Below are positions 7,293-43,621 of a stretch of 54,508 nt of DNA, one piece after another. The DNA comes from Planctomycetota bacterium (GTDB lineage Bacteria > Planctomycetota > Phycisphaerae > SM23-33). The position numbers and the translations under genes were made by a program. Position 1 is the stretch's first letter. Every line of letters begins with the position of its first letter. The DNA is taken from NCBI GenBank assembly GCA_024275995.1, contig JAJRYB010000009.1, positions 1 through 54,508 of the forward strand. Reading direction: 5' to 3'. The notes under the pieces are model-generated. The model ran no database searches, had not been told where the DNA came from, and saw nothing but the letters and a program-made list of their open reading frames with translations.

Positions 7293-7937
7293 ATGGCCAG
7301 GCAAATCGTACTTTTCGGCGGGACGTTCGACCCGGTGCACCACGGGCATCTGATCGTTGCGCGATGCGTTGCGGAACTGTGCCTGTTCGATCGCATCACA
7401 TTTCTTCCCGCGGCAAGCCCCCCGCACAAGGCTCGCGCCGCCGCGTCGGCGGACCATCGCCTGAGGATGTTGCAACTGGCCGTCGAAGGCGACGAAATGT
7501 TCGATGTCTGCGACGTGGAGCTTCGCCGCGAAGGTCCAAGCTACACGTTCGACACGATCGAGGCGATCCGCGCCGTCGAAGGGCCCGATGTCGACATCCG
7601 CCTGGTTATCGGCGCGGACATGCTGGAGGACCTTCCCAACTGGCGGGAAGCGTCGAAGCTGGTGGACGCCGCAGGATGGGTTATCGCCGCCCGTCCGCCA
7701 TGGGATTCCCGGATGGACGAGATCATCGCGCACTGTCGCGATCGGCTTTCGCCGGCGCAGGCAAAGCGTCTGGGTGAGTCCGTTCTCGTCACGCCGCTGC
7801 TGGAGATTTCATCGACGGACATTCGACGCCGAACGGGACGGGGGCTTTCCACCCGGTACCTGGTTCCAGAGGCAGTGCGACGTTATATCGAAGAGCATGG
7901 GCTTTATGCGTCCTCCGCCGGCGAAACGGATGATTGA
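7293..7937 (+). CDS. nadD: Nicotinate-nucleotide adenylyltransferase NadD
   Basis: 214 residues. It shows the nucleotidyltransferase GGTFDPVHHGHL motif at the N-terminus and the ISSTDIRRR motif near residue 170, which together form the ATP site. NadD transfers AMP from ATP to nicotinate mononucleotide, giving NaAD in NAD synthesis. The usual partner genes rsfS or obg are not adjacent; the gene instead faces coaD, an enzyme of the same superfamily. A purine-rich stretch (GGAAGGGGCG) lies a little far upstream of the ATG. hisF is divergent, 170 bp away. Confidence 0.95.
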   Translation: MARQIVLFGGTFDPVHHGHLIVARCVAELCLFDRITFLPAASPPHKARAAASADHRLRMLQLAVEGDEMFDVCDVELRREGPSYTFDTIEAIRAVEGPDVDIRLVIGADMLEDLPNWREASKLVDAAGWVIAARPPWDSRMDEIIAHCRDRLSPAQAKRLGESVLVTPLLEISSTDIRRRTGRGLSTRYLVPEAVRRYIEEHGLYASSAGETDD

Positions 7938-8051: not shown

Positions 8052-8080
8052 TTGACAAATAGGGGATTTGTGGTACAAAT
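8052..8080 (+). promoter_or_regulatory. Promoter with three operator-like half-sites
   Basis: A perfect -35 TTGACA (8052-8057), a 16-bp spacer and a -10 of TACAAA (8074-8079) predict a start near 8087. The same stretch carries ACAAAT at 8055-8060, ATTTGT at 8066-8071 and ACAAAT at 8075-8080. These are three alternating inverted half-sites with centres 11 and 9 bp apart, covering -35 to -10. A repressor or activator dimer binding there would control the RNA downstream. The half-sites are seen; the regulator is not identified. Confidence 0.6.
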
Positions 8081-8086
8081 GCTTTT

Positions 8087-8176
8087 GGCGTAAGTATGAG
8101 GCTCCTCGGTCAAACCCCCTCCTTTGGCCGAGTTTTATGACGGCGTCAGGCTCCCCTCCCCTGACGCCGATTTTTT
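8087..8176 (+). ncRNA. Candidate small RNA with twin CU-rich loops
   Basis: About 90 nt between the convergent genes nadD and coaD, directly after a good promoter. Hairpin 1 has a 10-bp stem (8105-8114 with 8123-8132, one G-U pair) and the 8-nt loop CCCCCUCC, followed by UUUU. Hairpin 2 has a 10-bp stem (8141-8150 with 8160-8169) and the 9-nt loop CUCCCCUCC, followed by A and six U residues, a good intrinsic terminator. Both loops expose CCUCC, complementary to the SD core GGAGG. C-rich loops that pair with ribosome-binding sites are known in small RNAs of other phyla. Alternatively the pair is only a tandem terminator for nadD. No Rfam family is recognised. Confidence 0.55.
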
Positions 8177-8193
8177 GCGCCTCGTCAGCTTCG

Positions 8194-8721
8194 TCATTGC
8201 GTCTCGTGCAGCGTTTCGTCCGGGCCGGTGTGCTTGCGGCAGGCGTCCAGGATATGCGTCAGGGCCTGGGGGGGCACCATCGACGAAACGTCGCCTCCCA
8301 TCTGTGCGATCTGCTTGATGAGCCTGCTGGAAGTGAACGCGAATTCCGTGCTCGTCAGGACGAAGACGGTTTCCACGCCGGCCGCGGCACGGTTCGTCAA
8401 CGCCACCTGGAATTCGAACTGAAGGTCCGAGCTGTTTCGAATACCGCGCAGTATCACCGACGCGCCGATCTCCCGCGCGAAATCCGTCGTCAGTCCGGAG
8501 TAGGTCTCCACGCGTACGTTGGGCAAATCGCCGAGGACCTGGCGAATTATTCCGGCACGCTCCTGCTGGTCGATAAGGGCGACCTTTTCCGGGTTGTCGC
8601 CCACCGCGACCACGAGTTCGTCAAAAAGTCCGCTCCCGCGTCGGATAACGTCCAGATGCCCGTTCGTTATCGGGTCGAACGTGCCCGGGAACATCGCGAT
8701 TTTTTTTGCCTTTTCGGTCAT
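8194..8721 (-). CDS. coaD: Phosphopantetheine adenylyltransferase CoaD
   Basis: 175 residues, a little longer than the usual 160. The N-terminus has the family motif MFPGTFDPITNGHLDVI, and the second nucleotide-binding motif appears as FTSSRLIKQIA (usual ISSSxxR/STxxR type). CoaD adenylylates 4'-phosphopantetheine to dephospho-CoA, the penultimate step of CoA synthesis. SD AGGGGA lies before the ATG at 8721. A consensus -10 TATAAT on the minus strand (8751-8756) is about 30 bp upstream. The stop is only 18 bp beyond the U-tract of the facing small-RNA candidate. Confidence 0.96.
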   Translation of the reverse strand: MTEKAKKIAMFPGTFDPITNGHLDVIRRGSGLFDELVVAVGDNPEKVALIDQQERAGIIRQVLGDLPNVRVETYSGLTTDFAREIGASVILRGIRNSSDLQFEFQVALTNRAAAGVETVFVLTSTEFAFTSSRLIKQIAQMGGDVSSMVPPQALTHILDACRKHTGPDETLHETQ

Positions 8722-19083: not shown

Positions 19084-19685
19084 GGCTGCCTCCTGAGGCC
19101 GTCGGATGTCCCGGACGATCCGGGAGCGGCCTTGTTCCATTTCCGCAACCTGGAAATCAGGGTCTTGTGGCGCATGCAGATTGCCGCCTCGCATCTGTTC
19201 AGCACATGCCCGATCTCTTTGAACGTCATACCGTCGGCGTAATAGAGTTGCAGCAGCCTCCGGTCTTCTTCGCCGAGACGCCGCAGCATTACTTGGATCT
19301 GGTCTCGCAAATCGACGTCGCGAATTGTGGCGCCGGAATTTTTTTCGGAGATATTTTCCAGGCAGCTTCCGTTGACGGACAGCGGCCAGTATGGCAGTGC
19401 CGGTCCGCCCGAGCTGCTGCTGCGGCGAATCACCTTGTCCTCCCGCATGGCGTCGATCGCGAGATACCTCGCCTTGCGAATCGCGAAATTCGAGAAGGGG
19501 ACACCCCTCTTGGGCATGTAGGCTTTCGCCGCCAGCGTCAGACCCCAGAGGGCGTAACTGTACAACTCGTCGCTGTCCACCCAGACGTAAGATCGCTTCA
19601 ATTGGAAGGCGATGGAACGTGCCAACGGAAGATGCCGCTGCAAAAGAAGGGTTCGGAAGCTCGTTGACGCCTTTGAGATATCCAT
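19080..19685 (-). CDS. Sigma-70 family RNA polymerase sigma factor (short)
   Basis: 201 residues from the ATG at 19685 (MDISKAST). Region 2 is recognisable in LPLARSIAFQLKRSYVWVDS, DELYSYALWGLTLAAKAYMP and PFSNFAIRKARYLAIDAMRE. Region 4 is recognisable in LRRLGEEDRRLLQLYYADGM and TFKEIGHVLNRCEAAICMRH. Region 3 is reduced, as in FliA/SigB-like or ECF-related alternative sigmas. A GGAGG SD precedes the ATG but lies in the loop of a 5-7 bp hairpin (19685-19704). The response regulator follows with an ATGA overlap. Which promoters it reads cannot be told from the window. Confidence 0.88.
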   Translation of the reverse strand: MDISKASTSFRTLLLQRHLPLARSIAFQLKRSYVWVDSDELYSYALWGLTLAAKAYMPKRGVPFSNFAIRKARYLAIDAMREDKVIRRSSSSGGPALPYWPLSVNGSCLENISEKNSGATIRDVDLRDQIQVMLRRLGEEDRRLLQLYYADGMTFKEIGHVLNRCEAAICMRHKTLISRLRKWNKAAPGSSGTSDGLRRQP

Positions 19686-19704
19686 TGGGAAACCTCCTTC
19701 CCAA
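19685..19704 (-). promoter_or_regulatory. Hairpin presenting the SD of the sigma-factor gene in its loop
   Basis: On the minus strand UUGGGAA / UUCCCAA encloses the 6-nt loop GGAGGU, which is the ribosome-binding site. The A of the start codon forms the last stem pair. Loop GGA motifs on a short stem resemble CsrA/RsmA sites, and the loop is also complementary to the CCUCC loops of the candidate small RNA at 8.1 kb. Confidence 0.5.
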
Positions 19705-19859
19705 AGAAAGCACGATCCGCAGCCCATACGTCAGGCTTTGTCCCCAGCCAAAGGGCCGCTGCCACGTCAGCCTCCTTGCTGAACACGAAAATGCAAATGA
19801 GACAGCCGACTTGAACTCGCTCCAGGTCTCTCGGCTTCCACGAGACCTATTCTATACAG

Positions 19860-43359: not shown

Positions 43360-43621
43360 AGGCCTGAAAGGCCGCACAGAAATTAGCCGGGGGCGTAAGC
43401 CCCCGGAATAGATGGCGTTATATTATGCATTAGCCCCAACGGGGTGACAGAAATCTTGGGGTTATCGCAGGAAAACAATACGTCCCAGTATTTCTGTCGC
43501 CCCTTCGGGGCTTGCGTATGATAAGAACATCCATCCGGGGGTTTCGCTTCCGACTTCGCCAAGGCTTCGTCGGACAAGTCGCTCCACCCCCGGCTAAATT
43601 CTGGTCAGCCCTTTCGGGCTT
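43360..43621. mobile_element. MITE-like palindromic element
   Basis: About 262 bp bounded by imperfect 34-bp terminal inverted repeats: left 43360-43393 (includes CAGAAATTAGCCGGGGG), right 43587-43621 (includes the complement of CAGAATTTAGCCGGGGG). Inside are further palindromes: CCGGGGGC / GCCCCCGG near 43388-43406, GCCCC-AAC-GGGGT near 43433-43445 and GCCCC-TTC-GGGGC near 43499-43511. No transposase frame is present, so it would depend on an enzyme elsewhere (REP-associated or DDE type). Confidence 0.65.

Follow-up and report, generated by a model that had tools for sequence, protein, structure and literature searches.

The window, the whole stretch of 54,508 nucleotides analysed here, contains between nadD and coaD two hairpins with C-rich loops behind a promoter-like sequence, which raises the question of whether this region encodes a small regulatory RNA or only ends the nadD transcript. 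The first-pass annotation favoured a regulatory RNA that would block Shine-Dalgarno (SD) sequences, and the sequence features that it gave (TTGACA, three half-sites, two 10-bp hairpins with their loops, and six U) were correct in coordinates and letters. The segment, referred to here as RNA-1, occupies window positions 8086-8176 (+). It has a promoter of the sigma-70 type, a 5' AGGCUCCUCGG element and a pair of hairpins, of which the second is the terminator.

Architecture of the nadD-coaD intergenic region

The features of the locus were assigned as follows.

7293..7937 (+): nadD, upstream of RNA-1 and co-oriented with it, nucleotidyltransferase Pfam PF01467
8052..8057 (+): -35 hexamer TTGACA of the RNA-1 promoter, from the sequence; TTGAC(A/G) is similarly placed upstream in most homologues
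8055, 8066, 8075: ACAAAT/ATTTGT half-sites, two of the three overlapping the window -35 and -10 hexamers
8074..8079 (+): -10 hexamer TACAAA, spacer 16, extended -10 TG, part of the top-scoring -35/-10 pair of the upstream region
8086..8176 (+): predicted RNA-1 transcript of ~90 nt, its start placed from the -10 hexamer and its end from the U tract
8099..8109 (+): 5' element AGGCUCCUCGG, comprising unpaired AGGCUC and the initial bases of hairpin 1, in (nearly) invariant alignment columns
8105..8132 (+): hairpin 1, 10 bp, with loop CCCCCTCC as DNA or CCCCCUCC as RNA at 8115-8122
8141..8176 (+): hairpin 2 and intrinsic terminator, 10 bp, a stem-loop at 8141-8169 followed by A and six U (8171-8176)
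8194..8721 (-): coaD, convergent downstream neighbour of RNA-1, Pfam PF01467

The loop of hairpin 2 (8151-8159) reads CTCCCCTCC as DNA and CUCCCCUCC as RNA. Both C-rich loops are interrupted by U, giving a longest C run of five in loop 1 and four in loop 2. Hairpin 1 of the window contains CCUCCUUU, a match to the 16S rRNA 3' end, and CUCCUC within the 5' element provides a third anti-SD-like segment. The -35/-10 pair of the window gave p 0.035 against shuffled sequences, and 19 of 29 homologous upstream regions gave p < 0.05. Because the -10 hexamer is best read as TACAAA, transcription is expected to start near 8086, a slight shift from the position near 8087 proposed earlier.

The RNA-1 (+) strand folded better than 200 out of 200 shuffles (z = -3.4). 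The opposite strand was rejected as the transcript, as it folded like its shuffles (z = -0.65) and its hairpins are not followed by a U tract. In the window no gene on the same strand lies directly downstream of RNA-1, which makes it unlikely to act there as a riboswitch or leader. A real, previously uncatalogued RNA gene at window positions 8086-8176 (+) is very probable.

The frequency of such loops was measured over 1.61 Mb (61%) of the host genome by scanning for terminator-like hairpins whose stems were perfectly paired over 7 bp or more. A CCTCC loop was present in 3 of the 503 hairpins; two of these are the hairpins of RNA-1 and the third lies in a sibling RNA (C19, described below), so that all three belong to double-hairpin RNAs. 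The RNA-1 loop pattern is well beyond chance, in agreement with the earlier argument that two CCUCC-loop hairpins are unlikely to be chance terminators.

Conservation and distribution of RNA-1

The alignment of 28 RNA-1 homologues, scored with both helices as folded in the window, had 97.6% of its cells paired. Changes on both sides of the pair were found in 14 of 19 base pairs (6/9 counted pairs in hairpin 1 and 8/10 in hairpin 2), a result equalled by 0 of 500 shuffles, and slid versions of the helices lowered the paired cells to 28-45%. The covariation among homologues that had been put forward as a check was thus observed.

The elements of RNA-1 were conserved to different degrees. The loop-2 core CCCCUC in the terminator was present in 38/38 copies, the 5' element GGCUCCUCGG (exact GGCTCCTCGG) in 33/38 and CCUCC in loop 1 in 25/38, being absent from the other 13. 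The search for homologues used similarity to RNA-1 over its full length, so that these counts are biased towards conservation, a bias that should not extend to the contrast between the elements. Conservation is higher in the loops and the 5' element than in the covarying stems, and CCUCCUUU was not retained throughout the family. The description of both loops as the defining feature is therefore not supported, the loop-2 core being invariant and loop 1 less well kept, and the 5' element had not been highlighted.

In most members a TTGAC(A/G) promoter precedes the 5' element, while the remaining intergenic sequence diverges. The ACAAAT/ATTTGT half-sites, from which a dedicated regulator had been postulated, were absent from 25 of the 29 homologous upstream regions and occurred once in three; all three were found only in the window, and the dedicated regulator is not upheld.

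The covariance model R1, which scored 97.6 bits on the window at 8093-8180, was used to determine the distribution of the family, with at least 45 bits taken as a strong copy. Strong copies were found in 27 of the 35 genomes of the host family and in all three genomes of a sister family within the same order of Phycisphaerae. The other 210 genomes of the class gave nothing above 37 bits, and the other 293 genomes of the phylum nothing above 34 bits. Matches of 20-37 bits outside the order were discounted, those inspected including a tRNA, inverted repeats and common terminators in which no more than one loop was C-rich. One terminator in another family of the class (L112 2057-2139, G103:C12) has the loop CCCTCCTCC behind a TTGACA promoter and scored 36.6 bits with R1; it is a possible distant relative of RNA-1. 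When a pattern scan of ~85,000 species genomes was checked with R1, only records from Planctomycetota/Phycisphaerae remained, including one contig from Phycisphaerae bacterium SM23_33, and the non-planctomycete pattern matches had no covariance model support and were taken as chance.

In most relatives the DNA similarity is limited to RNA-1 itself (window 8097-8180) and the flanks diverge. In most genomes nadD is directly upstream on the same strand and coaD is often convergent, a constant context suggestive of plain vertical inheritance. Two or three copies are present in several genomes, and there are copies at other places with neither nadD nor coaD detected. One locus (L099 1967-2226, G017:C56) contains two RNA-1 copies in tandem, separated by ~80 bases and each having its own TTGAC promoter-like site. 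Another copy (L107 1991-2080, G014:C98) has an identical AGGCTCCCCTCCCCT loop segment in both hairpins, as if one had been duplicated.

The arrangement next to nadD could also be explained if RNA-1 were only the nadD terminator region, with two stacked hairpins ending the nadD mRNA and C-rich loops that have no function. RNA-1 does lie mostly on the nadD strand, directly downstream and in a constant position, and hairpin 2 is a good intrinsic terminator. However, the loops and the 5' element outdo the covarying stems in conservation, a promoter separates nadD from RNA-1 in most homologues, copies occur where nadD was not detected nearby (for example the tandem pair of L099, L100 and L103-L106), and CCTCC loops are otherwise almost absent from the 503 terminator-like hairpins, making this explanation unlikely. 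The conserved promoter, the covarying two-hairpin structure and the retention of CCUCC-type loops instead agree with the earlier proposal of a dedicated small RNA gene that is more than a terminator.

Sibling RNAs and comparison with known families

A second RNA family, RNA-2, came to light through a pattern based on the sibling loops; it combines an outer helix (CCGCUGCACCC/GGGUUGCGGC), an inner hairpin and a terminator hairpin. Both hairpins carry the loop UCUCCCUCCR; in all 14 aligned members UCUCCCUCC is present in both loops and CUCCCUCC is identical across the two. The pairs of RNA-2 covary beyond nearly all shuffles, with the outer helix showing no double change. At a threshold of 45 bits or more RNA-2 was found in 33/35 genomes of the family and 3/3 of the sister family, or 36/38 of the order, often as two or more copies per genome (relatives' loci L243-L271), and elsewhere in the class sample it scored no more than 27 bits. 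The genome of the window contains the following sibling RNAs.

G000:C114:37092-37206: RNA-2 copy, 106.6 bits
G000:C24:3495-3605 (L141 3495-3605): RNA-2 copy, 91.7 bits, no clean U tract
L135 14407-14496 (G000:C19): C19 sibling, a double-hairpin RNA (loops TTCTCCTCCTTT and TTTCCCTCC) that has a TATATT -10-like site

The C19 sibling showed essentially no DNA conservation and no clear DNA homologues in relatives of the family. RNA-1, RNA-2 and the C19 RNA have loops and layout in common and their stems differ, with weak cross-scores between the models. The existence of the RNA-2 family makes RNA-1 more interesting than a single locus.

No Rfam family was found at the gathering threshold at the position of RNA-1, either in the window or in nine homologous loci. 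The models of CcsR1, Scr3202, 6C and ar14 aligned loop to loop with RNA-1, all below their curated cut-offs. CcsR1 (RF02791) gave 32.1 bits against a gathering cut-off of 65.3 (E ~1e-6 over 106-171 nt), and the CCUCCUCCC loop of the CcsR1 or cuckoo RNAs is absent from RNA-1 of the window, whose loops are CCCCCUCC and CUCCCCUCC. The 6C model (RF01066) gave 25.0 bits against 47, and the U-interrupted C runs of RNA-1 differ from the two stem-loops with about six C per loop of 6C RNA. Scr3202 (RF02833) from Streptomyces, which also has two C-rich-loop hairpins, gave 25.7 bits against 52, and ar14/NfeR1 (RF02344), with three hairpins compared to two in RNA-1, gave 24.4 bits against 58.8. As all of these scores are below the cut-offs, RNA-1 is considered to work like these RNAs and to be a member of none. 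The class of Hfq-dependent small RNAs was also rejected, as Hfq (PF17209) was detected in 0 of 60 Phycisphaerae genomes in a search where the positive controls worked.

RNA-1 does have the structure of the double-hairpin, SD-blocking small RNAs with C-rich loops, in that the loops are conserved and not the stems, and it has its own promoter and an intrinsic terminator. Given the C-rich loops and that no Hfq was found, the best analogue is the B11/6C RNA of mycobacteria. Like RNA-1, the 6C/B11 RNAs of Actinobacteria consist of two hairpins with C-rich loops, the last being an intrinsic terminator, in a host without Hfq. RNA-1 differs in having loops of CCCCUCC or CUCCC with a fixed U in place of plain C runs, in its additional conserved 5' AGGCUCCUCGG element, and in its phylum and locus. 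B11/6C acts as a repressor by way of its C-rich loops, with no involvement of Hfq (PMC12395582, PMC10470900); in M. marinum the pairing is done by the C-rich loop of the terminator (PMC12395582), and repression directed at the ribosome-binding site (RBS) has been reported (PMC10470900).

The alphaproteobacterial CcsR1/cuckoo and ar14/NfeR1 RNAs share with RNA-1 the anti-SD hairpin loops (CCUCCUCCC in their case), paralogous copies, and variable stems with constant loops, the anti-SD loops of ar14/NfeR1 being ultraconserved while its stems vary (PMC10746234). RNA-1 is distinguished from both by the loop word CUCCCCUCC instead of CCUCCUCCC and by its occurrence in Planctomycetota without Hfq. 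LhrC1-5 of Listeria, where LhrC has three UCCC sites (PMC4132741), is comparable only in how it works, as the order of the elements and the phylum are different and LhrC gave no sequence match to RNA-1 in the Rfam search. A partial search of the literature, which leaves room for an earlier description, found none of RNA-1. RNA-1 is a conserved, uncatalogued small RNA family of a known functional kind.

Proposed mode of action

The 16S rRNA of the host ends in GGATCACCTCCTTTCT, a normal anti-SD, and AGGAG motifs peak 6-9 bases ahead of the starts, indicating that SD initiation is normal in this organism and that the loops of RNA-1 and RNA-2 are anti-SD sequences. With a probability of roughly 0.75, RNA-1 is an independently transcribed, trans-acting and Hfq-independent SD-blocking small RNA of ~90 nt. 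RNA-1 would be transcribed from its own promoter as a ~90-nt RNA, and its main C-rich anti-SD segment would be the terminator loop CUCCCCUCC, followed by the 5' GGCUCCUC element and, for the majority of members, CCCUCC of loop 1. These segments are predicted to contact the G-rich ribosome-binding sites of mRNAs loop first, and the pairing would block translation initiation without Hfq, repressing target mRNAs. The conserved structure, the conserved loops and the promoter-like and terminator elements are the observed support for this mechanism, and pairing of RNA-1 with SD sequences is supported by analogy and by sibling RNAs that share the loop motif.

The same loops might instead bind a protein, such as a C-binding regulator or Rho, with RNA-1 serving as a decoy or sponge. 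The repetition of identical loops, both inside a single RNA and among RNA-1, RNA-2 and the C19 sibling, is sponge-like, and a protein could stand in for Hfq; however, the conserved word complements the SD sequence, beyond mere pyrimidine richness, and loop variants such as CCCCUCC and CUCCCUCC are all still anti-SD, so that a protein ligand appears quite improbable. It is very unlikely that the loops mimic the 16S rRNA 3' end as a general anti-SD decoy acting on ribosomes or initiation with no chosen mRNAs, since, although CCUCCUUU in loop 1 of the window and CCUCCUUUC in the C19 sibling match the 16S 3' end letter for letter, the best-conserved loop CUCCCCUCC differs from the 16S sequence, CCUCCUUU is not family-wide in RNA-1, and a small RNA would titrate poorly against the number of ribosomes in a cell.

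For the SD-blocking RNA, a motif so near to the anti-SD has low target specificity by sequence alone. A duplex-energy ranking of 467 open frames with SD-like starts, for which the start calling was crude, returned a mere list of G-rich leaders and was rejected as target evidence; no target with conserved complementarity is claimed. The GGAGG ribosome-binding sites previously noted as plentiful nearby are present at 19697 (-), 44013 (+) and 41956 (-), but GGAGG is the ordinary SD of this organism. A kissing contact had been suggested with the gene at 19685, which encodes a sigma-70-like factor. The RBS hairpin region folded no better than shuffles (z = 0.08) and by inspection no such hairpin was seen upstream of 17 homologous sigma-factor genes, which speaks against that contact. 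In the window itself (19685-19715, -) an 8-bp hairpin (TTGGGAAGGAGGTTTCCCAA) holds the RBS of the sigma-70-like gene in its short loop, and this sequence could possibly form a local translation switch.

Taken more widely, it is conceivable, though we would put it at less than even, that an order of Planctomycetota without Hfq has a translation-control network of several RNAs (RNA-1, RNA-2 and siblings) with unrelated stems and near-identical loops acting on shared sets of G-rich ribosome-binding sites, and that loop-borne anti-SD regulation was invented here independently of the Alphaproteobacteria and Actinobacteria.

Very few regulatory RNAs are catalogued for the Planctomycetota, and a review from 2022 tabulates 8 for the PVC group as a whole (PMC9029176). 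The window also contains, at 43360-43406 (-), an Rfam match to Acido-Lenti-1 RNA (RF01687) in a planctomycete, at 47.2 bits against a cut-off of 37. At least two covariation-supported families are added here. RNA-1 and RNA-2 are clade-wide, with no strong matches in the rest of the phylum sample and hosts without detectable Hfq, and they open both chaperone-free small RNA regulation and the repeated origin of anti-SD loops to direct test.
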